NCBI RefSeq assembly: GCF_016803135.1
Contig: NZ_JAEVFE010000002.1
Location: 496,001 to 560,000, forward strand
Length of the DNA stretch: 64,000 bases
DNA from: Altererythrobacter sp. C41
GTDB taxonomy: Bacteria > Pseudomonadota > Alphaproteobacteria > Sphingomonadales > Sphingomonadaceae
Reading direction: 5' to 3'
Shown: positions 30,977-60,612 of the stretch, one piece after another
Position numbering within the stretch: position 1 is the stretch's first letter
How the letters are laid out: every line of letters starts with the position of its first letter
Made by a program: the position numbers and the translations under genes
The notes under the pieces: model-generated
The model's input: only the letters and a program-made list of their open reading frames with translations
What the model was told of the DNA's origin: nothing
Database searches by the model: none

Positions 30977-30988
30977 ATTGTATGCAAT
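30977..30988. promoter_or_regulatory. Island palindrome site 1 (ATTGTATGCAAT)
   Basis: One mismatch to the palindrome ATTGCATGCAAT. It lies 67 bases upstream of the ThDP lyase start in the divergent gap 30910-31211, and overlaps a second dyad, ATACAA-N5-TTGTAT (30967-30983). Apart from this and site 2, the 302-base gap shows nothing else recognisable. Confidence 0.65.
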
Positions 30989-31134
30989 GGGCGGCCGGCC
31001 TGCAGAGTCGACAGGCAGTCTTATGGGGAGGTCTTCTGGCCCAATCAGTCCCTTCCCAAGACAAGATGCCGTGTAGCAAATCATCGGGCCGCCAATCGTG
31101 ACCGCTGCAAAAATTATCGGTTGAACGGGTAATG

Positions 31135-31146
31135 ATTGGATGCAAT
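31135..31146. promoter_or_regulatory. Island palindrome site 2 (ATTGGATGCAAT)
   Basis: One mismatch to ATTGCATGCAAT, 65 bases before the monooxygenase start at 31212. It covers an alternative ATG at 31140, which is one reason to reject that start. Confidence 0.65.
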
Positions 31147-31211
31147 ATCACGCCAAAGACGGTGCCGACACGGACGGACCCGTTCGAGAATCAGGAGTCT
31201 TGGAAGAGTCG

Positions 31212-32702
31212 ATGGCCGAAAGCGAGCAGCACCGAACAGGTCCAGACGGGCGCCGCGGACGTCCATTGCTGCGCGTGGCGGTGATCGGTGCGGGTATGGC
31301 CGGTATCCTGGCTGCGATCAAGCTGCAGGACCGCGGCATCGAATGCGATGTCTTCGAGAAGGGCGACAGCGTCGGCGGCACTTGGCGGGAGAATACCTAT
31401 CCGGGCCTCGCTTGCGACGTGTCGGCGCACTGGTACACCTACACCTTCGCCCGTAACCCGGAATGGGACTCGCTGATGGCCGAAGGCAAGGACATTCGCG
31501 CCTACTTCGAGCGTGTCGCGCGGGACTTCGGCGTGCTCGAACGCACGCGCTTCAACAGCGAGGTCACGCAGCTCCGCTATCGCGAGGGTGCCTGGGACCT
31601 CAAGTGCGCGGATGGGCACGAAGGCAGGTACGATTTCGTCATCGCCGCCACCGGCGTGCTGCATCACGTGAACGTCCCCCGGTTCGAGGGTATCGAGACG
31701 TTCGAAGGTGCCGTCTTCCACTCGGCCCGCTGGGATCACGGCGTCGCGCTCGACGGCAAGCGCATCGGCGTCATCGGCACGGGATCGACCGCGGCGCAGC
31801 TTGCGTCCGCGCTGGTGCCGCGCGCGGAACGATTCGACCTGTTCCAGCGCACTGCGCAATGGGTCCTGCCGCGCGACAACGTGCCATACAGCGAAGAAGA
31901 AAAGGCCCGTTTCCGCGAGGATCCGGAAGCGCTCGAGCAACTGATCGCCGAGCTGCGGGCCAAGACGCTGGAAGGATACGCTACCGCGGTGATCGACGCC
32001 GACTCGCCTGAACTGGCCGCGATCGCACGGATTTGTCACGAGAATCTGGAGACCGTGAAAGACCCCGAGCTGCGGCGCAAGCTGACGCCGGACTATCGCG
32101 TCGGTTGCAAGCGGCTGGTCATCTCCAGCACGTTCTACGACGCCATCCAGCAGCCCAATGCCGAACTCGTCACATCGCCGATCCAGCGGATCGAGCCGGA
32201 GGGGGTGCGCACCGCCGACGGTGTGCTGCACGACCTCGATGTCCTCGTGCTTGCCACCGGTTTCCTGGTCGACCGGTTCATTCGTCCGACGCGAGTGATC
32301 GGGCGCGACGGGATCGACCTCGACGAAGTCTGGGCGGACGGACCACTGGCCTATCTGTCGATGAGCGTCGCGGACTTTCCCAACTTCTTCCTGCTCAACG
32401 GGCCCAACAGTCCGGTCGGCAACTTCTCGCTGGTCGAGGTCGCGCAGCACCAGATCGAATATATCATGCAGCTCGTGGAGGGCATCTGCCGCGGCGACTA
32501 TTCCGAAGTGAGCGCAACGCCGGGGGCGATGCGCAGGTTCGAAGCCGAACGCTGCGAAGCCGCGCGCAAGACGATCTGGGTGACCGGCTGCGATAGCTGG
32601 TATCTCGACAAGAACGGCGTGCCGGCATCGTGGACCTTTTCCTACGACCGCTTCGTCGACGAAACCGCCGCACCGCGGATGGAGGACTTCGAGGTCCGAT
32701 GA
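31212..32702 (+). CDS. Flavin-containing monooxygenase, Baeyer-Villiger type
   Basis: 496 residues. The FAD motif VIGAGMAG lies near residue 25 and the NADPH motif GVIGTGSTAAQ near 185. Between them is the Baeyer-Villiger fingerprint FEGAVFHSARWD (about 164-175; consensus FxGxxxHxxxW then P or D). Enzymes of this type insert oxygen next to a ketone, giving an ester or lactone. ATG 31212 is chosen because GGAAG precedes it by five bases; an in-frame ATG at 31140 lacks one and lies in an operator. It heads a nine-gene run to 38766. Confidence 0.9.
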   Translation: MAESEQHRTGPDGRRGRPLLRVAVIGAGMAGILAAIKLQDRGIECDVFEKGDSVGGTWRENTYPGLACDVSAHWYTYTFARNPEWDSLMAEGKDIRAYFERVARDFGVLERTRFNSEVTQLRYREGAWDLKCADGHEGRYDFVIAATGVLHHVNVPRFEGIETFEGAVFHSARWDHGVALDGKRIGVIGTGSTAAQLASALVPRAERFDLFQRTAQWVLPRDNVPYSEEEKARFREDPEALEQLIAELRAKTLEGYATAVIDADSPELAAIARICHENLETVKDPELRRKLTPDYRVGCKRLVISSTFYDAIQQPNAELVTSPIQRIEPEGVRTADGVLHDLDVLVLATGFLVDRFIRPTRVIGRDGIDLDEVWADGPLAYLSMSVADFPNFFLLNGPNSPVGNFSLVEVAQHQIEYIMQLVEGICRGDYSEVSATPGAMRRFEAERCEAARKTIWVTGCDSWYLDKNGVPASWTFSYDRFVDETAAPRMEDFEVR

Positions 32703-32765
32703 ACGGCCATGCAACGGCTCGGACGCCAGACCGGTCCGCGCCAACCACCGCATAAGGAGAGCGAC

Positions 32766-33164
32766 ATGATCACCCGTGAGGCCATTGCGAAGGCGCTTCG
32801 CGCTTTGAACGAGACCGAGAACGCCCGGCCGCATACCAGCGTCGAGGAAGTAAGCGCCGGTATCGACAAGATCATGGCGCCCGATGTCGAAGGCTGGCGC
32901 AACGGAGCCCACGTGCCCGACCGCGCAGGTGAGCGCGAAGTGGAACGCCGGGCTTTCGGCGCTCTTGCCGACTATCACCGCGTGGTCGAGCGGACGATCA
33001 TCGACCCACCCTTCGCCGCCACCGGCTGGACGATCCACGGATCGTTCGACGGACAGCCGGTGAGCGCGCCCGGCTCCTCTCAATTCGAGTTCAATGAGGA
33101 AGGACGGGTCAAACGCTACTGGATGAACTTCAATCCCGAGGATTTCTTCTACCGGAAGGGCTGA
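32766..33164 (+). CDS. NTF2/SnoaL-like small protein
   Basis: 132 residues after a strong AAGGAG. The C-terminal half (RVVERTIIDPPFAATGWTIH, FEFNEEGRVKRYWMNFNPED) has the alternating pattern of a SnoaL-like cone fold, found in isomerases, dehydratases and lactone hydrolases as well as in non-catalytic proteins. The function is not assignable. Its place after the monooxygenase suggests that it handles the oxidised product. Confidence 0.7.
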   Translation: MITREAIAKALRALNETENARPHTSVEEVSAGIDKIMAPDVEGWRNGAHVPDRAGEREVERRAFGALADYHRVVERTIIDPPFAATGWTIHGSFDGQPVSAPGSSQFEFNEEGRVKRYWMNFNPEDFFYRKG

Positions 33165-33201
33165 CCCTTCCAGGCGCACATTGATAACGGAGACGAATTG
33201 C

Positions 33202-33441
33202 ATGGCAGTCAGCGTTGAGCTTCCCAGCATCAGCATGGGCGTGACGGAAGCGACGATCGTCAGTTGGCTCAAGAACGTCGGCGACCGGGTCGAGGCCGGC
33301 GAGGTCATCGCCGAAGTCGAGACGGCGAAGTCGACGGTGGAAGTCGAATCCCCCGCGTCCGGCACTTTGGCGTCGATCGTGGTGCAGGTCGACGAGACCG
33401 TCGACGTCGGCACCGAGATCGCCACGATCGAGGAAGGCTGA
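33202..33441 (+). CDS. Free-standing lipoyl (biotinyl-lipoyl) domain protein
   Basis: Only 79 residues, consisting of one lipoyl domain: VELPSISMGVTEATIVSWL, GDRVEAGEVIAEVETAKSTV (acceptor lysine in ETAKS), ESPASGTLASIVV. No peripheral-subunit-binding or catalytic E2 domain follows; the next gene starts two bases after the stop. It would carry an acyl or aldehyde group from the E1 encoded next. Biotinylation is a less likely alternative, since the motif is ETAKS and not AMKM. Confidence 0.88.
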   Translation: MAVSVELPSISMGVTEATIVSWLKNVGDRVEAGEVIAEVETAKSTVEVESPASGTLASIVVQVDETVDVGTEIATIEEG

Positions 33442-33442
33442 C

Positions 33443-34423
33443 ATGTCACTGGACCGTGCCCGGCAGCTCGAGATGTTCCGGCGGATGCTGCGCATTCGCC
33501 TGTTCGAGGAAGCGCTGATCGCGCACTACCCCGTCGGCCACCTGAGCATCGGGCAGGAAGGTGCGATCGCCGGTGCGTGCATGGCGCTGCGCGACGACGA
33601 CTACGTCACCGGCACGCACCGTTCGCACGGCCATCCGATCGGCAAGGGCGCAGAGATCGCGCCGTTGATGGCGGAGATCTTCGGCAAGCGGACCGGCATC
33701 TGCAAGGGACTCGGCGGGTCGATGCACCTGACCGACACCAAGCTGGGTCTGATCTGTGAATCCGCGATCGTCGGCGGCGGTTTCCCGCTCGCAACCGGCG
33801 CGGGGCTGAGCGCGCAGGTGCGCGGCAGCGACCAGGTCAGCCTGTGCTTCTTCGGCGACGGCGCGGTCAACCAGGGCACCTTCAGCGAGAGCGTGAATAT
33901 GGGTGCGGTGTGGAAGCTGCCGGTCATCTATTTCTGCGAGAACAACGGCTATGCCGTGACCACGCCGGTTGAGAAGTCGCACGGTCAGCCGGAGATCGCC
34001 CGCCGCGCCGACGGATACGGAATTCCGGGTGTGGTCGTCGACGGACAGGACGCCGAAGCCGTCCACGCCGTGACGCTGGAAGCGGTCGAACGTGCCCGTG
34101 CCGGCGAAGGGCCGACGCTGATCGAGGCCAAGACCTATCGGTTCGACGAACACTCGAACCGCCTCGCCATTCCCATCGAATACCGCAGCAAGGAAGAGAT
34201 CGAGCACCATCGCAAGGAGCGCGATCCCATCACCCTCTACCGCGCCGTGCTGCAAGCGCGCGACCTGCTCTCCGAAGTCGAAGCGATCGAGGAGGAAGTG
34301 CGCAAGACTATCGACGATGCGGTGGAATTCGCCAAGGCCAGCCCCGAGCCCGAGATGAGCGATCTGTGGGACAGCATGTACGTCAACCCGATCGGCGCGC
34401 CGGTCGGGGGGGAGGGGTTATGA
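33443..34423 (+). CDS. ThDP-dependent dehydrogenase E1 alpha subunit
   Basis: 326 residues of the acetoin/pyruvate/branched-chain E1 alpha family. The ThDP motif runs FFGDGAVNQGTFSESVNMG then CENNGYAV; the earlier GKRTGICKGLGGSMHLTD stretch is typical of acetoin- and pyruvate-type E1. It decarboxylates a 2-oxoacid or cleaves an acyloin/diketone and passes the fragment to a lipoyl arm. Coupled to the lipoyl-domain gene upstream and overlapping the beta gene (ATGA 34420-34423). Confidence 0.92.
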   Translation: MSLDRARQLEMFRRMLRIRLFEEALIAHYPVGHLSIGQEGAIAGACMALRDDDYVTGTHRSHGHPIGKGAEIAPLMAEIFGKRTGICKGLGGSMHLTDTKLGLICESAIVGGGFPLATGAGLSAQVRGSDQVSLCFFGDGAVNQGTFSESVNMGAVWKLPVIYFCENNGYAVTTPVEKSHGQPEIARRADGYGIPGVVVDGQDAEAVHAVTLEAVERARAGEGPTLIEAKTYRFDEHSNRLAIPIEYRSKEEIEHHRKERDPITLYRAVLQARDLLSEVEAIEEEVRKTIDDAVEFAKASPEPEMSDLWDSMYVNPIGAPVGGEGL

Positions 34424-35397
34424 CCATGCGCAACGCCACCCAGAAACTGTCCTATCTCCAGGCCATCGTCGAAGCGCAGCGCGAGGAGATGCGCCGCGAC
34501 GAACGCGTGATCCTGATGGGTGAGGACATCGCCGTTTATGGCGCCCAGACGCTGTTCGACGAATTCGACGAGAAGCGGCTGCGCAACACGCCGATCTCTG
34601 AAAACAGCTTCGTCGGCGTCGGTGTCGGCGCCGCGCTGACGGGCCTGCGCCCCATCGTCGATCTGACCATTGCGAGCTTCTGCTATCTCGCCTCGGATCA
34701 GATCATCAACCAGGCGGCGAAGCTGCGATTCATGACCGGCGCGCAGCTGGCCGTGCCGCTCGTGGTGCGCACAAGCACGTTCTACAACAACCGCACTGCC
34801 GCCCAGCACGCCGACCGCCCCTATCCGCTGTTCATGAACACGCCAGGGCTGAAGGTTCTGGCGCCGTCGAATGCGACCGATGCCAAAGGCCTGCTCAAGT
34901 CGGCGATCCGCGACGACGACCCAGTGGTGGTGTTCGAGGACATCAACCTCTGGGGAAAGAAGGAGGAGGTCCCGACCGACGAGGATTTCCTCGTACCGAT
35001 CGGCAAGGCCGCAGTCCGGCGCGAAGGCGGAGATGTCACGATCGTCTCGATCGCCGGCTGTCTGCCGCATGCCCTGTCGGCGGCGGACGCGCTGGCGAAG
35101 GACGGCGTTGAGGCCGAAGTGATCGACCTGCGCACGATCGTCCCGCTCGACAAGGAGACGATCCTCGCGTCCGTCGCCAAGACTGGCCGGCTCGTCGTCG
35201 CGGATAACTCGCACAAAGTGGGCAGCGTCGCGTCGGAGATCGCGGCTGTCGTGTCGGAGGAGGGCTTCGAGAGCCTGAAGAAGCCGATCCAGCGCGTTGC
35301 CGCGCCGCAAGTCCACGTTCCTTACAACGCCGCGCTCGAAAAACAGCTTTTCGTCAGCAAGGACCGCATCATCGAGGCCGTCCGCGCAATCGCCTGA
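34420..35397 (+). CDS. ThDP-dependent dehydrogenase E1 beta subunit
   Basis: 325 residues: LSYLQAIVEAQREEMRRDER, GEDIAVYGAQTLFDEFDEKR, NTPISENSFVGVGVGAALTG and the C-terminal VIDLRTIVPLDKETI are family hallmarks. It forms the heterotetrameric E1 with the alpha subunit. No E2 acyltransferase or E3 dihydrolipoamide dehydrogenase is encoded in the window, so these must be borrowed from another complex or replaced. ATG 34420 follows GGGAGGG and overlaps the alpha stop. Confidence 0.92.
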   Translation: MTMRNATQKLSYLQAIVEAQREEMRRDERVILMGEDIAVYGAQTLFDEFDEKRLRNTPISENSFVGVGVGAALTGLRPIVDLTIASFCYLASDQIINQAAKLRFMTGAQLAVPLVVRTSTFYNNRTAAQHADRPYPLFMNTPGLKVLAPSNATDAKGLLKSAIRDDDPVVVFEDINLWGKKEEVPTDEDFLVPIGKAAVRREGGDVTIVSIAGCLPHALSAADALAKDGVEAEVIDLRTIVPLDKETILASVAKTGRLVVADNSHKVGSVASEIAAVVSEEGFESLKKPIQRVAAPQVHVPYNAALEKQLFVSKDRIIEAVRAIA

Positions 35398-35446
35398 CCC
35401 CACACGATCCTTTTGCATTCCAATCAAATCTCAACGGAGAATCCTC

Positions 35447-35869
35447 ATGGCCAACAGCATCGAAAAACGCTCCATCACGCAGGAAGCCAGCGACAAGCTG
35501 ATCGCCGCCGCGACCGCCAAGGCGGAAGAGATGGGAGTGCCGATGTGCATCTCGATCGTCGACGAGTCGGGCAACCTCAAGGCTTTTCGCCGGATGGACG
35601 GCGCGGCGCTGCTCTCGGTCGATATCGCGACCAACAAGGCGTACACGGCGATCAGCTTCGGCATGCCGAGCCATGGCTGGCACGAATTCATCAAGAACGA
35701 TCCGCCGCTGCTCCACGGCATTGTCCATACTCCGCGCCTGGTCGTGTTCGGCGGCGGCTATCCGGTGAAAGAAGGTGGTCACATCATCGGCGGAATCGGC
35801 GTCAGCGGCGGCCATTACGAGCAGGACATGGCGGTTGCGGAAGCCGGCCTTGCCGCACTCGCCGACTGA
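35447..35869 (+). CDS. GlcG/HbpS-family protein
   Basis: 140 residues. IVDESGNLKAFRRMDGAALLSVDIATNKAYTA (here cited by its ends, IVDESGNL and NKAYTA), then GGYPVKEGGHIIGGIGVSGG, define the GlcG/HbpS fold. Members accompany glycolate oxidase, diol dehydratase and other catabolic operons, and some bind heme or corrinoids; the role is not established. It follows the E1 genes by 49 bases with its own CGGAGA site. Confidence 0.82.
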   Translation: MANSIEKRSITQEASDKLIAAATAKAEEMGVPMCISIVDESGNLKAFRRMDGAALLSVDIATNKAYTAISFGMPSHGWHEFIKNDPPLLHGIVHTPRLVVFGGGYPVKEGGHIIGGIGVSGGHYEQDMAVAEAGLAALAD

Positions 35870-35919
35870 ATCTGCCTTGACCCCACCGGCAGCGCTGCGG
35901 CCTGGCTCGGATACGTCGC

Positions 35920-36726
35920 ATGGATGACATCTCTTCGATACTCTACGAGTCCGCGCAGCGCTTGCTGGGCGATCTGTCGGAACGCGTCCTGGCGGGACAG
36001 GCGCTGACCGACAAGGACCGCGCGGATGGCTGGCGGCGGATCGAGGAGATGGGCCTGCCCGTCGCGCTCGTGAGCGAGGAGGCAGGAGGGTTCGGCTTTT
36101 CCGATGCCGATGCCTTCGGGCTGGTGCGTATCTGCGGGCGCCACATCGTGGCCTGGCCGCTGGTGGAAACGATGCTGGCCAATCGCTTCGCGGTGGAGAA
36201 CGGCTCCGAGCCGCTCGAAGGCCCGGTCGAGACGCTGGGCGAGTTGACGCCCGAACAACGCGAGGCTGCGGCGCTGACGCGGGCCGTGCAGATGGCGGGC
36301 GCACTCGATGCGATCCTCGCCATGACCATTTCCCATGTGCAGGAACGCCAGCAATTCGGCCGTGCATTGGCGAAGTTCCAGGCCGTCCAGCACTCGCTTG
36401 CCATCCTCGCGAGCGAGGTCGCTGCCGGGCAGGCCGCCGCCGACCACGCGGTCGCCCGGCGGGCACAAGGCGGAGACGGGGCGACCCTCGCCATCGGCAT
36501 CGCCCGCGCCCGTATCGGGGAGGCGTGCTCGAAAGCTGCCGCCATCGCCCATCAGTTGCACGGAGCCATCGGCTATGCGCAGGAGCATCGGCTGCATCTT
36601 TATACGACCTCGCTCTGGAAATGGCGCGACGAGTTCGGGACTCAGGCCTGGTGGACCCAGCAGGTCGGCCGCGAGGTTCTCGCCTCCGGTCGCGATGCGT
36701 TCTGGCCGATGGTGACGGCAGCATGA
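35920..36726 (+). CDS. Half-size acyl-CoA dehydrogenase subunit lacking the middle domain
   Basis: 268 residues against 370-400 for the family. The N-terminal helical part (1-100, with MGLPVALVSEEAGGFGFSDAD) runs almost directly into the C-terminal helical domain (AVQMAGALDAILAMTISHVQERQQFGRALAKF, cited by ends; then AHQLHGAIGYAQEHRLHLYT). The beta-barrel domain that normally holds part of the flavin is missing. It is coupled (ATGA) to a full-length paralogue, so a heteromer like the FadE pairs of steroid catabolism is likely, with this chain structural or carrying only part of an active site. Confidence 0.82.
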   Translation: MDDISSILYESAQRLLGDLSERVLAGQALTDKDRADGWRRIEEMGLPVALVSEEAGGFGFSDADAFGLVRICGRHIVAWPLVETMLANRFAVENGSEPLEGPVETLGELTPEQREAAALTRAVQMAGALDAILAMTISHVQERQQFGRALAKFQAVQHSLAILASEVAAGQAAADHAVARRAQGGDGATLAIGIARARIGEACSKAAAIAHQLHGAIGYAQEHRLHLYTTSLWKWRDEFGTQAWWTQQVGREVLASGRDAFWPMVTAA

Positions 36727-37877
36727 CTCTCCTGACCTTTCCTCCTCCGGTCGAGAACGAGGCGACGGAGGCCCTGCGCACGGAGGTACGCGCCTTTCTC
36801 GCCGAAGCCATTGCGACGCGAACGCCGCTCGAGCGCGCCGAGAGCTGGAACGGGTTCGACCGGGAATTCAGCCGTGCAATGGGTGCGCGCGGCTGGCTCG
36901 GCATGACCTGGCCGAAGGAATACGGCGGGCACGAGCGCAGCGCCTTCGAACGCTACGTGGTGGTCGAGGAGACGCTTGCGGCCGGCGCGCCCGTCGCCGC
37001 GCACTGGATCGCCGACCGGCAGAGCGGCCCCTCCCTTTTACGCTATGGCACCGAGGCGCAGAAGCGCACGATCCTGCCGCGCATCGCGGCGGGGGACTGC
37101 GTGTTCTGCATCGGCATGAGCGAACCCGATTCCGGCTCCGACCTCGCCGCGACGCGCACCCGCGCGGAACGGCAGGTTGACGGATCGTGGACGGTCAACG
37201 GCACCAAGCTGTGGACCACCTACGGCCACGAAGCCGATTACATGATCCTCTTCTGCCGCACCTCGGGCACACCGGCGGACCGCCACAAGGGAACAAGCCA
37301 GTTGCTCGTCGACATGAAGGCGACTCCGGGCGTCACGGTCCGGCCGATCTACGACGTGATGGGCCAGCACCACTTCAACGAGGTCCATTTCGAAGACGCC
37401 GTGCTGCCGCCTGACGCGATTCTCGGCACGGAGGGCCAGGGATGGGCGCAGGTCATGGGCGAACTGGCCTATGAACGATCCGGGCCCGAGCGATTCCTGT
37501 CGTCGATCCAGCTCCTGCTCGAACTGATCGGCACGCTGCAGGGGAGCGAGAGCGTCGCGGCGCAAACGGCGGTAGGACGCCTGTTCTCGCACCTCGTCAC
37601 CTTGCGGCATATGTCGCGCGGCGTCGCCGCCTTGCTCGAGGCGGGCGAGGACCCGACGGTCCATGCCGCGATCGTGAAGGATCTCGGCGCCACCTTCGAA
37701 CAGGATCTGCCCGATATCGCGCGCAGCCTTGTCGACGAGGAGCCGGACCTGCAGAGCACAAGCGATTTCGCCGCCGTGCTCGCCTATACCACGATGGCCG
37801 CGCCGGCCTTTTCCCTGCGGGGCGGCACGCGCGAGATCCTGCGTGGTATCATCGCGCGGCAACTGGGCCTGCGCTGA
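36723..37877 (+). CDS. Acyl-CoA dehydrogenase, partner subunit
   Basis: 384 residues with all three domains: EYGGHERSAFERYVVVEE, IGMSEPDSGSDLAATRTRA, MGQHHFNEVHFEDAVLP, AYERSGPERFLSS and a C-terminal FSLRGGTREILRGIIARQLG. At the place where short-chain enzymes have a catalytic Glu (EGT) this protein has GGT, as in many FadE-type subunits, so the base must lie elsewhere. It probably oxidises a bulky or branched acyl-CoA together with the half-size subunit. Confidence 0.9.
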   Translation: MTLLTFPPPVENEATEALRTEVRAFLAEAIATRTPLERAESWNGFDREFSRAMGARGWLGMTWPKEYGGHERSAFERYVVVEETLAAGAPVAAHWIADRQSGPSLLRYGTEAQKRTILPRIAAGDCVFCIGMSEPDSGSDLAATRTRAERQVDGSWTVNGTKLWTTYGHEADYMILFCRTSGTPADRHKGTSQLLVDMKATPGVTVRPIYDVMGQHHFNEVHFEDAVLPPDAILGTEGQGWAQVMGELAYERSGPERFLSSIQLLLELIGTLQGSESVAAQTAVGRLFSHLVTLRHMSRGVAALLEAGEDPTVHAAIVKDLGATFEQDLPDIARSLVDEEPDLQSTSDFAAVLAYTTMAAPAFSLRGGTREILRGIIARQLGLR

Positions 37878-37887
37878 GGAGATCGCG

Positions 37888-38766
37888 ATGATCGAACTGG
37901 TCGAGGTTTCGCCCCGGGACGGCCTGCAGAACGAGCCGACGATCCTGCCGGTCGATACCAAAGTCGCGCTGATCGAGCGCGCCATCGCCGCCGGCGCGCG
38001 CCGGCTCGAGGTCGTCAGCTTCGTGCGGCCCGATGCGGTGCCGCAAATGGCGGGCGCGGAGGAAGTCGTCGCACGGCTGCGGCCCGGCGCGGCGCGCTAT
38101 ATCGGTCTCGTGCTGAACAAGCGGGGCGCCTTGCGGGCGCTCGAAACGAACGTCGACGAGATCGGATTCGTCTGTATCGCGAGCGACACCTTCGGGATGC
38201 GCAATCAGCGTCAGACCAGCGAGCAGTCGCTTGCCGAAGCGCGCGACGTGCTGAGTCTGGCGCGATCGGAGAAGCGCGACGCGCAGGCGATGATCGCCGC
38301 CGCATGGGGCTGCCCTTTCGAGGGGCCGACGCCGCAGGACAGGGTCGTCGCCATGGCCAGCGCCTTGGCGGAAGCGGGAAGTCTCGAGATCGGCCTCGCC
38401 GACACCATCGGGATCGCCCGGCCCAGCGAAGTCGAAGCGCTGACACGCCGCGTCAAGGAAGCGGTGGCGCCGCTGCCTGTTCGCGTGCACCTGCACGACA
38501 CGCGCGGAATGGGCGTTGCCAACGCGCTCGCCGCGATCCGCGCCGGAGCCAGTACGATCGATGCCGCGATCGGAGGGACCGGTGGCTGTCCTTTCGCCCC
38601 CGGGGCCGCCGGGAACCTCGCCACCGAAGACCTCGCCTATGCGCTCGGCGCGGATCTGGAGGTCGACCTGGACGCGCTGATCGACACTGCGATCTGGTTG
38701 AACGGTGAGCTATCGCGCGATCGGGTCAGCGCCCTCGTCCGGGCGCACACGTCGGGCGGCTGCTGA
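37888..38766 (+). CDS. Hydroxymethylglutaryl-CoA lyase-like enzyme
   Basis: 292 residues, TIM-barrel of the HMG-CoA lyase family: EVSPRDGLQNE at the start, HLHDTRGMGVANALAA, and the catalytic cysteine motif IGGTGGCPFAPGAAGN. Such lyases split 3-hydroxy-3-methyl-acyl-CoA esters retro-aldol fashion. HMG-CoA itself arises in leucine and acyclic terpene degradation. Last of the rightward run from 31212; it converges on the CoA transferase. Confidence 0.92.
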   Translation: MIELVEVSPRDGLQNEPTILPVDTKVALIERAIAAGARRLEVVSFVRPDAVPQMAGAEEVVARLRPGAARYIGLVLNKRGALRALETNVDEIGFVCIASDTFGMRNQRQTSEQSLAEARDVLSLARSEKRDAQAMIAAAWGCPFEGPTPQDRVVAMASALAEAGSLEIGLADTIGIARPSEVEALTRRVKEAVAPLPVRVHLHDTRGMGVANALAAIRAGASTIDAAIGGTGGCPFAPGAAGNLATEDLAYALGADLEVDLDALIDTAIWLNGELSRDRVSALVRAHTSGGC

Positions 38767-46463: not shown

Positions 46464-46470
46464 TCTCGCT

Positions 46471-50108: not shown

Positions 50109-50120
50109 ATCGCATGCAAT
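50109..50120. promoter_or_regulatory. Island palindrome site 6 (ATCGCATGCAAT)
   Basis: One mismatch to ATTGCATGCAAT. It is a third copy in the same gap, about 115 bases to the right of the tandem pair, a spacing that would allow looping. The neighbouring gene on the right ends here, so the site can serve only the leftward promoter. Confidence 0.6.
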
Positions 50121-51453: not shown

Positions 51454-51483
51454 GATGGATCCGTGTTTTTTCGGGAGAGAGGA

Positions 51484-52521: not shown

Positions 52522-52533
52522 TTTGCATGCAAT
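52522..52533. promoter_or_regulatory. Island palindrome site 8 (TTTGCATGCAAT)
   Basis: Perfect core TTGCATGCAA (52523-52532), 37 bases before the rightward hydratase ATG at 52571. It faces the five-gene rightward operon 52571-58252. Confidence 0.72.
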
Positions 52534-52570: not shown

Positions 52571-53371
52571 ATGTCGAAGCAACTACTCACGGAGCGGGAT
52601 GGTGCGGTCGTGACCATCACGCTCAATCTGCCGGAGGCGCGCAATCCGATCTCCGACAACACGATGGTCGACGCTCTCGTCGATGCGCTGCAGGCCGCGG
52701 ATGGCGATCCTTCGGTTCGCGCCGTCATTCTGACCGGTGCCGGCTCGGCCTTCTCCTCGGGCGGAGATCTGTCCAAGATGAAGCCGGGCCTCGGCTTACG
52801 CGGGGAGCAGCCGGTCGCCACCGTGCGCAACTATCGCGACGGCATCCAGCGCCTGCCGCTCGCCTTTCAGCAGCTCGAAGTGCCGGTCATCGCCGCCGTC
52901 AACGGTCCGGCGGTCGGAGCGGGCTGCGACCTCGCTTGCATGTGCGACATCCGCATTGCGTCCCAGACGGCGCGCTTTGCGGAAAGCTTCGTGCGGGTCG
53001 GCCTCGTCCCCGGCGACGGCGGGGCCTGGCTCCTGCCGCGGGTGATCGGCTGGCCCCGCGCCACCGAACTCGCACTGACCGGGCGGATGATCGATGCGGC
53101 GGCCGCGCTCGACTGGGGGCTGGTGACCAAGGTGGTCGAGCCCGACGAACTGATGCCCGCCGCGCGCGCGCTGGCCGACGAAATCGCGGCCAATCCGCCG
53201 CGTGCCGTGCGCCTGACCAAGCGACTGCTGCGCGAGGCGCAGGACGCGTCGCTAGGTACCGTGCTCAACCTCTCGGCTGCGCTGCAGGCCGTGGTCCACG
53301 AGACGCGGGATCACGAGGAGGCGGTCGATGCCTTCCTCGAACGGCGCAAGCCGAACTTCACCGGCAACTGA
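52571..53371 (+). CDS. Enoyl-CoA hydratase/isomerase family protein
   Basis: 266 residues: VVTITLNLPEARNPISDNTM, GAGSAFSSGGDLSKMK, VNGPAVGAGCDLACMCDI, FVRVGLVPGDGGAWLLPRVI. The second catalytic position is GD where classical hydratases have a Glu, so isomerase or other crotonase chemistry is possible. ATG 52571 follows GAGGAAAG; the upstream in-frame TTG lies in the operator. First gene of a rightward operon with an SDR, an HMGS-like protein, a thiolase and a CoA transferase. Confidence 0.88.
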   Translation: MSKQLLTERDGAVVTITLNLPEARNPISDNTMVDALVDALQAADGDPSVRAVILTGAGSAFSSGGDLSKMKPGLGLRGEQPVATVRNYRDGIQRLPLAFQQLEVPVIAAVNGPAVGAGCDLACMCDIRIASQTARFAESFVRVGLVPGDGGAWLLPRVIGWPRATELALTGRMIDAAAALDWGLVTKVVEPDELMPAARALADEIAANPPRAVRLTKRLLREAQDASLGTVLNLSAALQAVVHETRDHEEAVDAFLERRKPNFTGN

Positions 53372-53393
53372 TTTCACGAACGGGAAAGCGATA

Positions 53394-54305
53394 ATGGGAA
53401 TTCTGGAAGGCCGCGTCGTCGCGGTGACCGGCGCGGGGCGCGGGATCGGGCGCGAGCTGGCCCTGCTCTGCGCGCGCGAGGGCGCGAGTGTGATCGTCAA
53501 CGACTACGGCGTCTCCGCCGCGGGCGAAGGCAACGACGAGGGGCCGGCATCCGAAGTCGTGGACGAAATCGCGAAGGCCGGCGGAACCGCCTATGCCAAC
53601 CTCGCCAGCGTGACCGATCCGGCCGGTGCCACCAGCATCGTAGAGGATGCCGTGCAGAAATTCGGCCGTATCGACGCGGTGGTCAACAACGCCGGCTTCC
53701 TGCGCGACCGGATCTGGCACAAGATGAGCCTCGAGGATTGGCGCGCCGTCGTCGATGTGCATCTCAACGGGGCGTTCAACGTGTCGAAAGCGGCGACGCC
53801 TTATTTCCGCGAGCAGGGTTCGGGCAGCTTCATCCACTTCACCTCGACCTCCGGCCTGATCGGCAATCTGGGGCAGGCGAACTATTCGGCGGCCAAGATG
53901 GCGATCGTCGGCCTGTCGCAGTCGATCGCGCTCGACATGCAGCGCTTCGGCGTGCGGTCGAACTGCATCGCGCCGTTCGCGTGGAGCCGGATGATCGCGA
54001 CGATTCCGTCCGACAATCCCGACGAGCAGAAGCGCTTGGAGCGCATGCAGGCGATGAGCGCGGACAAGATCGCGCCGCTGGTGGCGTTCCTCGCGTCCGA
54101 CCTGTCGAAGGATGTGACCAACCAGATATTCGCCGTCCGCAAGAACGAGATCTTCCTGTTCTCGAAACCGCGCCCCGTCCGCGCCATGCACCGGTCGGAT
54201 GGGTGGACGGCGCAGTCGATCGCCGACGAGTTCATACCCGCCGTCCGCTCCGACTTCGCGTCGATGATCCGCTCGCCCGAGCTGTTCAGCTGGGACCCGG
54301 TCTGA
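53394..54305 (+). CDS. Short-chain dehydrogenase, MFE-2-type 3-hydroxyacyl-CoA dehydrogenase
   Basis: 303 residues. VVAVTGAGRGIGRELALLCA, IVNDYGVSAAGEGNDEGPAS (the NDYG/EG insert typical of MFE-2-type enzymes), VNNAGFLRDR, HFTSTSGLIGN and ANYSAAKMA. These dehydrogenases oxidise 3-hydroxyacyl-CoA in beta-oxidation of bulky or branched chains. Its distal part (AVRKNEIFLFSKPRPVRAMH) matches that subgroup. Start ATG 53394 after GGGAAAG, 22 bases past the hydratase. Confidence 0.9.
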   Translation: MGILEGRVVAVTGAGRGIGRELALLCAREGASVIVNDYGVSAAGEGNDEGPASEVVDEIAKAGGTAYANLASVTDPAGATSIVEDAVQKFGRIDAVVNNAGFLRDRIWHKMSLEDWRAVVDVHLNGAFNVSKAATPYFREQGSGSFIHFTSTSGLIGNLGQANYSAAKMAIVGLSQSIALDMQRFGVRSNCIAPFAWSRMIATIPSDNPDEQKRLERMQAMSADKIAPLVAFLASDLSKDVTNQIFAVRKNEIFLFSKPRPVRAMHRSDGWTAQSIADEFIPAVRSDFASMIRSPELFSWDPV

Positions 54306-54327
54306 CCATGGCGGGGGCGGAATTCGA

Positions 54328-55779
54328 ATGAGCGATTTCGGCATCCTGTCGTGCGGCGTCTACCTGCCGCGCGGCCGCCTCGATCGGTCCGCGATCTATA
54401 ACGCGAACCGATGGTTTGCGCCGGGTCTAAAGAGCCTGGCGCGAGGGCATCGCGCCATCGCCAACTGGGACGAGGATGCCGTGACCATGGCGGTCGAGGC
54501 CGCACGCACTTGCCTCGACGGACGCGATCGCGCGGCAGTCGAGGGGCTGACGCTGGCCAGTGTGACCCATCCTTTCGCCGACAGGGCGAATGCCGGCATC
54601 GTCAAGGAAGCGCTGAACCTGTCCGACGGGATCGTCGCGCTCGATGCGGGCGGCAGCATGCGGGCGGCGACGAGCGCCTTGCGCGATGCGTTGGAAGGAT
54701 CGCGCACGCGGCTGTGCATCGGATCGGACTTGCGCAAGGCCCGCCCGGCGTCCGAAGCGGAACTGGTTCAGGGCGACGGCGCGGCGGCGATCCTCGTCGG
54801 CCGCGGCACGCCCATTGCCAGACTGGTGGCCAGCCATTCGGTGACGGTCGATTTCGTCGATCACTTCCGCGCCAGCGGCGAGAGCTTCGATTACCAATGG
54901 GAAAGCCGCTGGGTGCGCGAGGAAGGCCATCTCGCTATCCTGGCCGATGCGGTGCAGGCCCTGCTAGCGGAGGGCAAGGTCGCGGCGGGTGATATCGACC
55001 ATGTCGTCCTGCCGATCGCGGCCGGCGGAACGGTCAAGGCGATCGCCCGCAAACTGGGGTTGAAGGACGGGGCCGTGGTCGACACCCTGTCCGCCGAGAT
55101 CGGAGACACCGGCACAGGGCATCCCCTGCTGCTGCTGGCCAGCGCGCTCGAACGCGCTTCGCTGGGCGAGCGAATTCTGGTTACCGGGTTCGGGCAGGGC
55201 GCGGACGTTCTGCTGTTCGAGGCCACGGAGGCCATCGCGGACCACAGGCCCCAACGCACGGTCGCCGCCTGCGTCGAAGACGGTGTGGCCGACGACAACT
55301 ACATGCGTTTCCTGTTCCACCGCGGGCTGATCGATCTCGAGCGCGGCATTCGCGCCGAGCTGGACCAGAAGCAGCCGGGCACGACACTCTACCGCAAGCG
55401 CACGGCGGTACTCGGCCTGGTCGGCTCTCGCTGTACCGTGACCGGCACCGTCCAGTTCCCGCCGAGCGCGATCTCGGTCGATCCCAATGGGCGCAAGCAG
55501 GGGACGCAGGAGGATTATCCGCTGGCGGACCGCACCGCGCGGATCGTCTCCTACACCGCCGACGCGCTCGGCTATTCGCCCGATCCGCCGACATATTACG
55601 GCACGCTCGATTTCGATGGCGGCGGGCGGCTCGTCACCGAATTCGCCGAAGTCGGGCCCGACGATGTCGAGGTTGGCCGCGCGATGCGCATGGTTTTCCG
55701 CATCAAGGCCGAGGACGAGCAGCGCCATTTCACCAAATACTTCTGGAAGGCCGTGCCGCTGAACGAGGGAGAAGCCTGA
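54328..55779 (+). CDS. HMG-CoA-synthase-like protein fused to a DUF35/OB-fold domain
   Basis: 483 residues. The N-terminal part (1-320) has the thiolase/HMG-CoA synthase fold: GILSCGVYLPRGRLDRS, then EDAVTMAVEAAR, SVTHPFADRANAG and RILVTGFGQGADVLLFE. At the place of the nucleophilic cysteine it reads LDAGGSMRAATSAL, so the usual catalysis is lost. The C-terminal part (about 340-483) is the OB-fold of acyl-CoA-associated DUF35 proteins, with a degraded zinc ribbon (VGSRCTVTG). Its stop overlaps the thiolase start, so it probably forms a complex with that thiolase, as DUF35 proteins do. Confidence 0.82.
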   Translation: MSDFGILSCGVYLPRGRLDRSAIYNANRWFAPGLKSLARGHRAIANWDEDAVTMAVEAARTCLDGRDRAAVEGLTLASVTHPFADRANAGIVKEALNLSDGIVALDAGGSMRAATSALRDALEGSRTRLCIGSDLRKARPASEAELVQGDGAAAILVGRGTPIARLVASHSVTVDFVDHFRASGESFDYQWESRWVREEGHLAILADAVQALLAEGKVAAGDIDHVVLPIAAGGTVKAIARKLGLKDGAVVDTLSAEIGDTGTGHPLLLLASALERASLGERILVTGFGQGADVLLFEATEAIADHRPQRTVAACVEDGVADDNYMRFLFHRGLIDLERGIRAELDQKQPGTTLYRKRTAVLGLVGSRCTVTGTVQFPPSAISVDPNGRKQGTQEDYPLADRTARIVSYTADALGYSPDPPTYYGTLDFDGGGRLVTEFAEVGPDDVEVGRAMRMVFRIKAEDEQRHFTKYFWKAVPLNEGEA

Positions 55780-56987
55780 TGGCCCGCGGAATCAAGGACA
55801 GGGTCGCGATCGTCGGCATGGGCTGCTCGCGGTTCGGCGAACGGTGGAACGACGATGCCGAAACGCTGATGGTCGAGGCGTTCGACGAATGTATCGCCGA
55901 TGCCGGGATCGACGTCTCGCGGATCGACGCGGCCTGGCTCGGCGTCGGGTTCGAGGCGCAGAACATCGGCCCTTCGGGCATTCCGCTGGCAACGGCGCTG
56001 CGGCTCCCGGACATCGGCGTGACCAAGGTCGAGAACTATTGCGCGACCGGCACCGACTCGTTCCGCGGCGCGGTCTATGCGGTGGCCTCCGGCGCGGCGG
56101 ACATCGCGCTGGCCATGGGCGTCGAGAAGCTGAAGGACACCGGCTACGGCGGCCTCCCGGCACGCAGCCGCGGGCTCAACTTCGACATGTACGGCGTCAC
56201 CGGGTCGGCCCCCGGCAACTTCGCGCAGATCGCCGCGCCCTATCGCGCCAAGCACGGGGTTTCGCGCGACGACCTCAAGCGGGCGATGGCGCACGTCTCG
56301 GTCAAGAGCCACGCCAACGGGGCCAGGAACCCCAAGGCGCATCTGCGCAAGGCGATCGATATCGAGACGGTGCTGAATGCCCCGATGATCGCCGAGCCGC
56401 TCGGCCTGTTCGACTGCTGCGGCGTGTCCGACGGCGCGGCCTGCGCGATCGTCACCACGCCGGAAATCGCGCGCGAGCTCGGCAGGACCGATCCGGTCCT
56501 GGTCAAGTCGATCCAGCTCGTCACCTCCAACGGCTGGGAGCTGCAGCACGCCGGCGGCTGGGACGGGACGTACTTTCACACCACCCGCAAGGCCGCGGCC
56601 CGCGCCTATGCCGAGGCCGGCGTCACCGATCCCCGCGCGGAGATCGACCTCCTCGAAGTGCACGACTGCTTCTCGATCACCGAACTGGTCACGATGGAAG
56701 ACCTCTTCATTTCCAAAGAGGGCCAGGCCTGGAAGGACATTCTCGACGGTTTCTACGATGCGGACGGCCACACGCCCTGCCAGATCGACGGCGGCCTGAA
56801 GTGTTTCGGTCATCCCATCGGCGCGTCGGGACTGCGCATGATCTACGAGAACTATCTGCAATTGCAGGGCCGCGCCGGCGAGCGCCAGCGCGCGGACGGG
56901 CCGAAGCTCGCGCTGAGCCACAATCTCGGCGGCGCGCCGATCCAGAATGTCTCGGCGATCACGATCGTCGGACTTGAAGGTGCGTGA
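55779..56987 (+). CDS. Thiolase (SCP2-type acetyl-CoA acetyltransferase)
   Basis: 402 residues. DRVAIVGMGCSRFGERW, nucleophilic cysteine in VENYCATGTDSFRGA, second acid-base region EVHDCFSITELVTMED, and GGLKCFGHPIGASGLRM. The HDCF and C-FGHPIGASG motifs mark the SCP2 thiolase group. It would release acetyl- or propionyl-CoA from a 3-ketoacyl-CoA at the end of each cycle, with the upstream HMGS-like/OB-fold protein as partner. ATG shares a base with the preceding stop. Confidence 0.92.
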   Translation: MARGIKDRVAIVGMGCSRFGERWNDDAETLMVEAFDECIADAGIDVSRIDAAWLGVGFEAQNIGPSGIPLATALRLPDIGVTKVENYCATGTDSFRGAVYAVASGAADIALAMGVEKLKDTGYGGLPARSRGLNFDMYGVTGSAPGNFAQIAAPYRAKHGVSRDDLKRAMAHVSVKSHANGARNPKAHLRKAIDIETVLNAPMIAEPLGLFDCCGVSDGAACAIVTTPEIARELGRTDPVLVKSIQLVTSNGWELQHAGGWDGTYFHTTRKAAARAYAEAGVTDPRAEIDLLEVHDCFSITELVTMEDLFISKEGQAWKDILDGFYDADGHTPCQIDGGLKCFGHPIGASGLRMIYENYLQLQGRAGERQRADGPKLALSHNLGGAPIQNVSAITIVGLEGA

Positions 56988-57031
56988 CGCACCGGCGATG
57001 CAGTTCCGGAACGCTCGAAGGATGAGAACCG

Positions 57032-58252
57032 ATGTATACGCTGCTTGACGGACTGCGGGTGGTGGAGGCGTCCTCGTTCGTCGCTTGTCCGACGGCTGGC
57101 CTCTATCTTGCTCAGATGGGCGCGGAGGTCATTCGCGTCGATCAGATCGGCGGCGGGCCGGACTTCCGCCGCTGGCCGCAGGCGGAGAATGGCGACAGCT
57201 TCTATTGGGAAGGGCTGAACAAGGGCAAGCTCTCCGTTGCGCTCGACCTGTCCAGCGGGGAAGGGCGCGAGCTTCTGGCGGAAATCGCAGCCGCGCCGGG
57301 AGAGAAAGCGGGAGTCTTCCTCACCAACTTCCCGGTCGGCGGGTTCCTTTCCTGGGAGCGGCTGTCGGCTCGCCGCGAGGATCTGATCCTGACGCGCATC
57401 ATGGGCCGCGCGGACGGCAGCCCGGCGCTCGACTATACCGTGGCGTCCGCCCTCGGCATTCCGTTCATCACCGGGCCGGAAAGCCTTGGCGATGAGCCGG
57501 TGAACGCCGTTCTGCCCGCATGGGATCTGCTGACCGGGGCCTATGCCGCTTTCGCCACGATGGCGGCGCTCCACCACCGGTCGGAAACTGGCGAGGGGCA
57601 GGAGATCCGGATTCCGCTGGCCGACGTCGGCATCGCCACGATCGCGAACCTGGGCCAGTTGGCCGAAACGCTCCACGGCGGCGATCGCAAGCGCTACGGC
57701 AACGACGTCTTCGGCGCATTCGGCCGCGATTTCAAAACGCGCGACGGCGAACGCATCATGCTCATGGCGATCACCCCGCGGCAGTGGCGCGGGCTCGTCG
57801 CGGTGCTGGGTATCGCGGACGAGGTGGCGCGCATCGAGGAGGAGCGCGGGACATCGTTCGCACGCGACGAAAGCGAACGGTTCGTGCACCGCGATGCGCT
57901 CTATCCTCTGGTAGAACGGGCCGTGGCTGCACGCGAGAGCGGCGAGCTGGGGGCGGCGCTCGACAGTGAAGGATGCTGCTGGGGGCCTTACCAACGGATG
58001 GAGCAGGCCGTGCGCGACCCGGCTCTGGTGACCGGCAATCCGCTATTCTCCGCCATCACGCACCCAAGCGGCGCGCACTACGCAGCGCCCGGCGCCATGG
58101 CGACTCTGCCTTCTCAGGCGCGGGTTCCCGTGCGTCCGGCGCGACGTCTCGGCAGCGACACCGAGAAGGTGCTGACCGAGATCGTCGGCCTTGGCGCGGG
58201 ACAGTTTGGCGCGCTGATGGACAAAGGCATTGTAGGCGTCCCGAAGCCATAG
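57032..58252 (+). CDS. Class III CoA transferase (CaiB/BaiF family)
   Basis: 406 residues: LDGLRVVEASSFVACPTAGL, GAEVIRVDQIGGGPDFRRWP, YWEGLNKGKLSVALDL, and AVLPAWDLLTGAYAAF with the catalytic Asp. It is a second member in the island, distinct from the one at 38817. It follows the thiolase after 44 bases and a GAAGGATGAGAA site and closes the rightward operon. It may activate the primary acid with CoA from a pathway ester. Confidence 0.9.
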   Translation: MYTLLDGLRVVEASSFVACPTAGLYLAQMGAEVIRVDQIGGGPDFRRWPQAENGDSFYWEGLNKGKLSVALDLSSGEGRELLAEIAAAPGEKAGVFLTNFPVGGFLSWERLSARREDLILTRIMGRADGSPALDYTVASALGIPFITGPESLGDEPVNAVLPAWDLLTGAYAAFATMAALHHRSETGEGQEIRIPLADVGIATIANLGQLAETLHGGDRKRYGNDVFGAFGRDFKTRDGERIMLMAITPRQWRGLVAVLGIADEVARIEEERGTSFARDESERFVHRDALYPLVERAVAARESGELGAALDSEGCCWGPYQRMEQAVRDPALVTGNPLFSAITHPSGAHYAAPGAMATLPSQARVPVRPARRLGSDTEKVLTEIVGLGAGQFGALMDKGIVGVPKP

Positions 58253-58352: not shown

Positions 58353-58376
58353 GCCATTATTGCATGCAATAATGGC
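58353..58376. promoter_or_regulatory. Island palindrome site 9, perfect 24-bp palindrome
   Basis: The half-site GCCATTATTGCA is followed exactly by its reverse complement, giving 24 bp of perfect dyad centred on TTGCATGCAA. It is the most symmetrical copy in the window and may be the closest to the true consensus. It lies 116 bases before the decarboxylase-family gene at 58493; the rest of the gap 58253-58492 shows nothing else clear. Confidence 0.8.
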
Positions 58377-58492: not shown

Positions 58493-59143
58493 ATGCCGCG
58501 CCTTCCGCTCGTCAGCCGCGCCGATATCGACGATCCGCTCGTCCAGTTCATGTACGACCGCAAGTTCCCGGGCCGCGATCCGGCGACACAACCGGGTCAG
58601 ACCGCATCGGGCGCGCCGGGCAACTACGAGGCGGTGCTCGCCCATTCGCCCGACGTGCTCGAGCACGCGGTGCGCGGATTTTATCTGAAGCAGACGAAAA
58701 AGCGGAAGCTGCCGCTCCAATACATGGAGCTTGCCATTGCCCGCATCGGTTGGGCCTGTTCGTGCCGCTGGATGTATTCCGAACACAGCAAGATCCTGCG
58801 CGGCCTCGGCTATTCGGAGGAGGCGCTGGCCGACATACCCGCCTGGCAGACCAGCGACCGGTTCGACCATGCGGAGCGCGCGGTGCTCGCCTACGCGGAC
58901 TGCATCGCGCTCGATCACGGGCGGGTGCCGGACGTGCTCTTCGCCCGTCTGGAAGCGCAATTCGATGCCGAGCAGATCATCGAACTGACCTATGTCGCGA
59001 GCATGTTCATGATGAACGCCGGCATGATCCGCGCGCTCCGGCTTGAGCACGACGACTACGACGAACGCGTGCGCGAAATGCCGTCGCCGCCCGAGTATCG
59101 TTTCGTCGACGTCGAGCCTGCACCGCTCCCAAGCAGGGACTGA
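58493..59143 (+). CDS. Carboxymuconolactone decarboxylase/AhpD-family protein
   Basis: 216 residues. The CMD helix reads YMELAIARIGWACSCRWMYS followed by EHSKILRGLG: cysteines spaced CxC, then a histidine, in place of the CxxC of peroxide-reducing AhpD. The N-terminal part (PRLPLVSRADIDDPLVQFMY) is typical of the long CMD-like proteins found in aromatic and alicyclic degradation clusters. Function is not assignable; redox or lactone chemistry are the options. ATG 58493 follows GGAAGG. Confidence 0.8.
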   Translation: MPRLPLVSRADIDDPLVQFMYDRKFPGRDPATQPGQTASGAPGNYEAVLAHSPDVLEHAVRGFYLKQTKKRKLPLQYMELAIARIGWACSCRWMYSEHSKILRGLGYSEEALADIPAWQTSDRFDHAERAVLAYADCIALDHGRVPDVLFARLEAQFDAEQIIELTYVASMFMMNAGMIRALRLEHDDYDERVREMPSPPEYRFVDVEPAPLPSRD

Positions 59144-59150
59144 CCTTCCC

Positions 59151-60473
59151 ATGTCGATGCGCGCCGCCTATCCCTATTACGTCGTCTTCTGCCTGATGGT
59201 GGCGAGCGCCCTGTCGTTCCTCGATCGGCTCGCGCTCAGCATGCTGATCGAGCCGATCAAGGCCGATCTCGCGCTTAGCGATACCGAGGTCAGCATTCTC
59301 GCCGGTGCCGCCTTCGCCGGTTCCTACGTGATCTTCGCGTTCGTTTTCGGCCGGTGGGTCGATACGCACGGGCGGCGGAACGCCATGGTCCTCGGCATAT
59401 CGTTGTGGAGCCTCGCCACTGCAGCGGGCGGCCTTGCCCGCAATTTCGGCAGCCTGTTCGCTGCGCGCTCGTTGATCGGCGTGGGCGAGGCGAGCCTCAA
59501 TCCCGCCGCCTATTCGATGATCGCCGATTACTTCCGGCCGTCGCGGCGCGGCATCGCAACCGCCATTTTCGCCTGCGGCGCCACGGTCGGCGGCGGTCTC
59601 GCCATCATGCTGGGCGGTCAGCTCGTGGACTGGGTCTACGCGACCGGGGCTACGCTGCCGCTGATGCCCGACGCGGCCCCGTGGCAGATCGTCTTCGTCG
59701 TGATCGGTCTGCCAGGCCTGCTCGTGGCCCTGCTCATCGCGCTGACCGTGCGCGAGCCGGAGCGGCAACTGGCGGGCGGCGAGACACAGGACATCCCGGG
59801 CATCCGCGACGCGCTCGTGTTCATCGGCAGCAATGCCCGCGCGCTGGTGCCGCTCTTTGCCGGCTATTCGTGCATTGCGATCATCGGCTACTCCTTCATG
59901 GTCTGGGGGCCGGTCCATTTCATGCGATTGCATGGCCTCGGTGCGGGCGACGTCGGCCTTCTCCTCGGCCTCGGTTACGGCATCGGCGGCACGATCGGGC
60001 TGCTCGCGGGCGGTGTCGTCTCGGACATGCTCGTCGCGCGCGGCCGGATCGAGGCGCCCGTGCTCGTCTCACTTGCGGCCGTCGCGATCGACACGCCGCT
60101 TTTCATCGGAGCCTATCTGGCCGGGGACTTCATGACCGCGGCGGTGCTGTTCTGCCTGGGCATGGCGGCGGCCAGTGTCGTCGGCGGACTGCAGATCTCG
60201 ATGGTGCAATCGCTTGCGCCCAATCGCCTGCGCGGAATCATGGCTGCCGTCTTCGGCGCATGCGTGAACCTGGCAGGTTTCGGCATCGCGCCGACGATCA
60301 CCGCCATGCTGGCCGAGAACCTGTTCGGAGGCGAAATGGGCATCGGCAAGGCGCTTGCGACGATGACGGCCCTCGCCGGGATTGGTGCGGCGGTGCTCAT
60401 CCTGATCGGGATGAAGCCCGGGCGCCTCCTCGCGCAGCGGTTGGCCGGAGAAGGTGCGCAACCGGCCGCGTGA
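59151..60473 (+). CDS. Major facilitator superfamily transporter
   Basis: 440 residues with 12 predicted helices. FLDRLALSMLIEPIKADLAL near the N-terminus, FGRWVDTHGRRNAMVLG (loop 2-3 motif) and DYFRPSRRGIATAIFACG are of the same MFS group as the transporter at 45120. It lies between the CMD-family gene and a TonB receptor, seven bases after the former, and is probably a second inner-membrane carrier of the island. Confidence 0.9.
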   Translation: MSMRAAYPYYVVFCLMVASALSFLDRLALSMLIEPIKADLALSDTEVSILAGAAFAGSYVIFAFVFGRWVDTHGRRNAMVLGISLWSLATAAGGLARNFGSLFAARSLIGVGEASLNPAAYSMIADYFRPSRRGIATAIFACGATVGGGLAIMLGGQLVDWVYATGATLPLMPDAAPWQIVFVVIGLPGLLVALLIALTVREPERQLAGGETQDIPGIRDALVFIGSNARALVPLFAGYSCIAIIGYSFMVWGPVHFMRLHGLGAGDVGLLLGLGYGIGGTIGLLAGGVVSDMLVARGRIEAPVLVSLAAVAIDTPLFIGAYLAGDFMTAAVLFCLGMAAASVVGGLQISMVQSLAPNRLRGIMAAVFGACVNLAGFGIAPTITAMLAENLFGGEMGIGKALATMTALAGIGAAVLILIGMKPGRLLAQRLAGEGAQPAA

Positions 60474-60516
60474 CCCCGGTCGCCCCAAGTCGCAGAACAA
60501 TGTGCAATCATGCGTC

Positions 60517-60528
60517 ATTGCATCCAAA
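60517..60528. promoter_or_regulatory. Island palindrome site 10 (ATTGCATCCAAA)
   Basis: Nine of ten core positions of TTGCATGCAA. It lies 132 bases upstream of the receptor start in the gap 60474-60660; weaker than site 11. Confidence 0.45.
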
Positions 60529-60600
60529 CTTAGCGGAGTTCACGTCAAGCTTCCCAGTTCTTGACGTAATTGCGCTTGCGCAGAGCCGCAAAATTGATAA

Positions 60601-60612
60601 ACTGCATGCAAT
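60601..60612. promoter_or_regulatory. Island palindrome site 11 (ACTGCATGCAAT)
   Basis: Nine of ten core positions, followed by AATA as in site 9. It lies 48 bases before the receptor ATG at 60661, near the expected transcription start. Confidence 0.62.

Follow-up and report, generated by a model that had tools for sequence, protein, structure and literature searches.

What governs expression of the 29 genes that lie between positions 29182 and 62937 of a 64,000-nucleotide stretch of the Altererythrobacter sp. C41 genome (the window), and why does a short palindrome recur in the gaps between them? The original prediction, made from the window's letters alone, had tied some 30 genes of this island into a single regulon and had named the GntR/FCD protein encoded within it as the candidate regulator. 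Our analysis favors the same view, and we put at roughly 80% the probability that the palindromes are operators of the island's FCD/GntR repressor, which would be released by a pathway metabolite and would control about 29 genes. Under this scheme, a dimer of the protein would bind WTTGCATGCAAW in or beside promoters and block transcription until a pathway metabolite, probably a carboxylate or similar acid, entered the FCD pocket and released it, turning on about 29 genes, the regulator's own run among them, by which one organic compound would be taken up and degraded. Computation directly shows where the sites occur, that they are confined to the island and conserved, that at some promoters they overlap conserved promoter-like boxes, and that this FCD gene co-occurs with them; from these results we infer GntR as the binder, repression as the mode of action, the ligand, and the substrate.

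Sites were sought with the pattern ATTGCATGCAAT, allowing up to two mismatches in the window and up to one or two across the genome. The window contains 12 matches at two mismatches or fewer, compared with a mean of 1.27 after shuffling, and none of 100 shuffles reached 12. Eleven of these are the copies reported originally, and the twelfth, at 59917, falls within a called gene; the reported starts stand, except that two of the 12-mers begin at 40313 and 58359 rather than at 40312 and 58353. All 11 are intergenic and occupy the six promoter gaps to which they had been assigned, the copy at 52366, which first fell inside a gene call, being counted as intergenic because the frame upstream lacks conservation and a GTG at 52350 is the start that is kept. 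The core of the sites is TTGC..GCAA, and the statement that four copies plus a 24-bp one have a perfect core was borne out, with five copies carrying TTGCATGCAA and six departing from it at one core position. No match precedes 30977, in accord with the reported lack of sites in the gaps of the first 29 kb; noncoding DNA amounts to 2496 bases before 29182 and 2635 bases within 29182-62937 by a gene call that may have missed genes, 947 bases being uncalled at 6282-7228. In leave-one-out matrix scans, every site ranked 11th or better among 63,987 window positions, and the weakest scored 17.8 versus 11.9 for the top match in the first 29 kb.

Across the genome of 3,204,785 bases, there are 10 places with no more than one mismatch, nine of them in one 30-kb stretch that makes up 0.92% of the total (binomial P of about 5e-18), and a reversed-pattern control gave none; at two mismatches, 30 places were found, with 3 for the control. 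The remaining off-island place, C10:19935 (ATTGCCTGCAAT), was set aside as probably coding, given that it lies within a 184-codon open frame and that the string recurs in other genomes. The idea that the motif is equally common elsewhere in the genome, which the original prediction had named as grounds for its own rejection, did not hold: the sites are confined to the island, as operators of a local regulon should be. Repeated palindromes could in principle be a different kind of repeated element, such as a mobile repeat or, since GCATGC lies within them, a modification or restriction site, but their concentration in the gaps of one 30-kb stretch, the failure of flanks to align between copies, and the retention of sites in relatives whose flanks have changed make this most improbable.

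The sites are the best-conserved bases of the promoter gaps in relatives: alignments of five Pelagerythrobacter genomes (three for gaps 4 and 5) show no variation in 103 of 132 operator columns, compared with 311 of 1761 other noncoding columns. Conservation is uneven, as the sites at 50109, 60517, and 60601 each have only 8 of 12 columns invariant. The top-scoring matrix position after the 11 sites is 40090, which was not in the original list and lies beside the divergent CoA-transferase gene; the first CoA-transferase had no near site in that list, and ATCGGATGCAGT at 40090 supplies one. Once it is counted, all nine predicted runs of the 29-gene block are headed by sites, which, together with their confinement and conservation, favors the proposed island-wide regulon.

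The candidate regulator combines an N-terminal GntR winged helix-turn-helix (PF00392, 60.2 bits against a cut-off of 27) with a C-terminal FCD domain (PF07729, 93.7 bits against 24.3), and it is assigned to the FadR (FCD) subfamily because both domains match, not on the basis of operator type. A scan of all 29 island genes turned up no regulator gene other than its own. Since this gene is the last of the site-headed SDRb run, it is probably autoregulated, which would limit its own synthesis. The protein has the pocket of an Asn or Asp and three His residues of FCD proteins, as N129, H133, H177, and H199, residues kept in 62, 70, 70, and 67 of 70 aligned rows, respectively. FCD pockets generally point to acid effectors, and the conserved pocket suggests one here.

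Regulator and motif also travel together in other genomes. Five of seven Pelagerythrobacter genomes have a GntR ortholog (at least 86% identity) and 6 to 10 places with no more than one mismatch, and the remaining two have neither; when places far from the GntR gene are left out, the clusters hold 9, 7, 8, 5, and 5 places (G000, G282, G160, G209, and G004). The island is largely syntenic in four Pelagerythrobacter relatives, with sites in equivalent gaps, and the same is true, over the DNA compared, of Hyphomonas johnsonii, a Marinicaulis metagenome-assembled genome, and a contig binned as Bacteroidetes. This last contig (L056), which carries part of the island and a GntR protein with 75% identity, most likely belongs to an alphaproteobacterium and was misbinned. 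Among eight GntR relatives in named genomes, all six with at least 75% identity are accompanied by sites with no more than one mismatch, and the two at 25% are not, in the DNA examined. Sites are kept in G012, where the island is rearranged and the GntR protein is 57 to 60% identical, and in G319, where most genes are different and the identity is 58 to 60%. In G209 and G004 (L075-L078, 40 kb each), the ACDc, ECHa, SDRc, KASIII-OB, and thiolase genes have no match, and sites persist in the gap where the genes flanking these five now meet.

Exact WTTGCATGCAAW occurs in 81 of 397 genomes of the family, and only five have three copies or more (G000, G160, G282, G012, and G011). All five have an FCD gene near the sites, and the first four have a GntR homolog; G011 provides a free test of the FCD assignment because it has no GntR match at an E value of 1e-30. 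Its 11 exact sites, 25 if near copies are counted, all belong to a single cluster of about 70 kb (L094-L098, G011:C36:262001-352000) that is rich in P450 and SDR genes and also has a thiolase and other genes. Flanked by sites within this cluster is an FCD gene whose product is 29% identical to the island GntR protein, an arrangement that supports the reading of the motif by an FCD protein. Within the window's own genome, no TTGNATNCAA site was found within about 1.5 kb of the genes for the four other FCD proteins (25 to 29% identical). Among the other FCD genes of this genome, one (29% identical; L018, around 1348-1361) has nearby a perfect 14-bp palindrome, TTTGGCATGCCAAA, perhaps that gene's own operator with wider spacing.

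More-distant relatives extend the association. Thirty homolog loci were fetched from a search matching 106 genomes, and 22 of them hold more-distant FCD homologs; a sister palindrome, TTGTATACAA, lies within about 1.5 kb in 17 of these 22 loci, and TTGCATGCAA lies within that distance in none of the 22. That relatives carry sister palindromes, that an FCD gene accompanies the motif cluster, and that no other regulator gene was found among the 29 make the GntR/FCD protein the best-supported candidate for the regulator.

Several operators overlap conserved promoter-like boxes. In tests with 300 shuffles of the flanks (p floor of about 0.003), a TTG box stood at a fixed distance from the operator in 7/7 genomes for SDRb, 8/8 for APH, 4/4 for ECHb, and 5/5 for BVMO, each with a p of about 0.003. 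The operator falls within the predicted spacer at APH, ECHb, and BVMO and contains the predicted -35 (TTGCAT) at SDRb; the -10 boxes are weak consensus matches. Because of these overlaps, repression relieved by a pathway metabolite is the likeliest mode of control, and the arrangement is most simply read as a repressor occluding the promoters.

A number of observations weigh against this account, and some of them would suit the alternative that the island's FCD protein binds the sites and activates transcription, or activates at some promoters and represses at others. The promoter tests fell short of significance at ECHa (p = 0.10), CMD (p = 0.29), and TonBb (p = 0.22, with the wrong site taken in G160). 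At the TPP gene, the top-scoring -10 is itself part of the operator (p = 0.01), an ambiguous result, and the alignment, read by eye, has a TTG box a short way downstream of the operator, in which case the operator would precede the -35. Ms0535, an FCD protein acting on the same core, is described as an activator in the part of PMC4609117 consulted, although the same text has it that GntR members usually repress; with the operator in the predicted spacer or containing the predicted -35 at four promoters, we regard activation as unlikely. The tandem copy at 49997 is not conserved, with none of its 12 columns invariant. Within the genus, the presence of the GntR gene is confounded with that of the whole island, and the G011 cluster does not single out the FCD protein, for a MarR gene in the same cluster has sites just upstream; it is the one other regulator found when 40 G011 proteins, part of the genes, were scanned with Pfam. 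The MarR gene would be compatible with binding by another regulator, either one encoded elsewhere or the LysR-type protein encoded at 28228-29124 beside the island, whose gene adjoins the TPP gene. The LysR gene, however, has no site in its own gap and is matched in only one of four Pelagerythrobacter relatives (G282), in stretches that end 5 to 9 kb beyond the TPP gene, and the sister palindromes beside FCD homologs and the published binding of this core by an FCD protein (PMC4609117, as consulted in part) also point away from a different binder, a reading that we consider quite improbable.

The sister FCD regulators of the same bacterial family are homologous (39 to 45% identity), and they share the palindrome frame and the placement of a site near the gene, but the central step is T/A in place of C/G, and position 62 of the wing holds Q, K, or L rather than R. 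For the comparison of residues, the five homolog loci that lacked a site were excluded, rows L021 and L051-L053 were dropped as copies, and the operator class of L022-L026 was taken from their island rather than from the 3.6-kb locus. Within the first 75 columns, six distinguish the 11 GC-type rows from the 21 TA-type rows, and column 62 alone among them is invariant in the GC rows, with its residue absent from the TA group (R versus Q, K, or L). Four mixed-operator rows have R, R, H, and Y at this position, L028 and L088 being those with R62. Ten plasmid rows, from 20 listed hits (114 records), comprise four TA-type, three mixed, and three without a site. Just upstream of the matched FCD gene, two Caballeronia-plasmid loci (L090 and L092) each have a pair of half-C, half-T sites (e.g., ATTGCATACAAT), which lie 62 bp apart. 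In 18 new class-level loci, seven rows without R62 have a site, in no case GC/GC, and six others without R62 have no site. The remaining five rows do have R62; TTGCATGCAA is absent from about 1.5 kb around each of them, and TTGAATGCAA is present in one, so that the test yielded no counterexample and no confirmation. The rows are related, with few switches and few independent changes, and we offer only tentatively the idea that Arg62, in the wing sequence IPNRGAFV, might determine the C:G step by which WTTGCATGCAAW differs from WTTGTATACAAW in this FCD branch. If it did, this would be a simple recognition code that allows a regulator and its dozen operators to shift in concert and insulates large catabolic islands from sister regulons.

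Genes were called and all 29 proteins were scanned with NCBIfam and Pfam profiles, and runs were predicted from strand and spacing (Table 1). With two CoA-transferases, two major facilitator superfamily (MFS) transporters, and two TonB-dependent receptors in the total, the gene content reads as a putative system for the uptake and degradation of one organic compound. A free 79-amino-acid lipoyl-domain protein adjoins E1 alpha and E1 beta (33202-35397), and no match to an E2 catalytic domain or an E3 was found among the 29 scanned island proteins. Outside the island, a tandem pair of glycine riboswitch aptamers (67 and 36.7 bits) at 15672-15879 lies just upstream of a gene called at 15928, an ordinary arrangement.

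Table 1. Probable operators and predicted genes of the island, in window coordinates; invariant columns refer to the Pelagerythrobacter alignments
Feature	Position	Strand	Context	Invariant columns
TPP enzyme, benzaldehyde-lyase-like	29182-30909	-		
Operator ATTGTATGCAAT	30977-30988		TPP-enzyme promoter side	11/12 (5 genomes)
Operator ATTGGATGCAAT	31135-31146		BVMO operon side	11/12
Nine-gene run: BVMO-like flavoprotein, SnoaL, lipoyl, E1 alpha, E1 beta, HbpS, two acyl-CoA-dehydrogenase parts, HMGL-like	31275-38766	+		
CoA-transferase family III	38817-39977	-		
Additional degenerate operator ATCGGATGCAGT	40090-40101		near CoA-transferase 38817-39977	11/12 (5 genomes)
Operator ATTGCATGCAAA	40313-40324		APH operon; TTGAC box just upstream in 8/8 genomes	12/12
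APH-type kinase, acyl-CoA ligase, SnoaL	40479-43604	+		
Run of SDR, TonB receptor, MFS, SDR, GntR	43608-49795	-		
GntR/FCD regulator	43608-44306	-	last gene of run 49795-43608	
Operator ATTGCATGCAAG	49981-49992		TTGCAT can act as -35 of the minus-strand SDR-TonB-MFS-SDR-GntR run, 7/7 genomes	12/12
Second tandem copy TTTGCATGCATT	49997-50008		16 bp from 49981 copy	0/12
Operator ATCGCATGCAAT	50109-50120			8/12
Enoyl-CoA hydratase, acyl-CoA dehydrogenase	50200-52350	-		
Operator ATTGCATGCAAA	52366-52377		just upstream of GTG start (52350) of minus-strand hydratase	11/12 (3 genomes)
Operator TTTGCATGCAAT	52522-52533		between TTG box and TA of plus-strand hydratase promoter, 4/4 genomes	12/12 (3 genomes)
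Hydratase, SDR, KASIII-OB fusion, thiolase, CoA-transferase	52571-58252	+		
Weak additional (13th) site AGTGCATACAAA	58253-58264		absent from original list	8/12 (3 genomes)
Perfect 24-bp palindrome	58353-58376		contains operator 58359-58370	10/12 (3 genomes)
CMD-family protein, MFS transporter	58493-60473	+		
Operator ATTGCATCCAAA	60517-60528		upstream of second TonB receptor	8/12
Operator ACTGCATGCAAT	60601-60612		upstream of second TonB receptor	8/12
TonB-dependent receptor	60661-62937	+		

The result is very probably a local control circuit of a clean but ordinary kind. As a regulon it is unusually clean, with one FCD regulator, about a dozen operators, and about 29 genes in a block that is syntenic in several alphaproteobacterial genera, and finding what induces a single promoter would be one way to search for the substrate. 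Because operators and regulators vary naturally, with GC, TA, and mixed cores, DNA recognition by VanR-like FCD proteins can be probed at a position to which the published GT/AC consensus does not extend. In the literature searches made, pairing ATTGTATACAAT or TTGTATACAA with GntR gave no match and pairing TTGCATGCAA with GntR returned PMC4609117 alone; in those searches, then, the operator core has been in print once, and the regulon is a new one of a familiar kind.

That precedent, as far as the consulted part of PMC4609117 describes it, is Ms0535 of Mycobacterium smegmatis, a VanR-like member of the FadR subfamily of GntR regulators whose footprint protects two copies of the core TTGCATGCA. 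Ms0535 resembles the island regulator in being an FCD-type GntR protein on the same core, and it differs in serving a two-gene operon as a reported activator and in having its copies 12 bp apart, compared with 16 bp at 49981 and 49997. The common FadR-subfamily operator consensus consists of TKGT/ACMA boxes with a GT/AC core, and members outside it are named in the portion of PMC4494728 consulted; the island sites depart from this consensus, which is common rather than defining. FadR-subfamily regulons with a 2-nucleotide GT-AC spacing, such as that of MdcY (same source and portion), share with the island a short palindrome in the same frame and single or paired sites in divergent gaps, and they differ in having a GT/AC core where that of the island is GC/GC.

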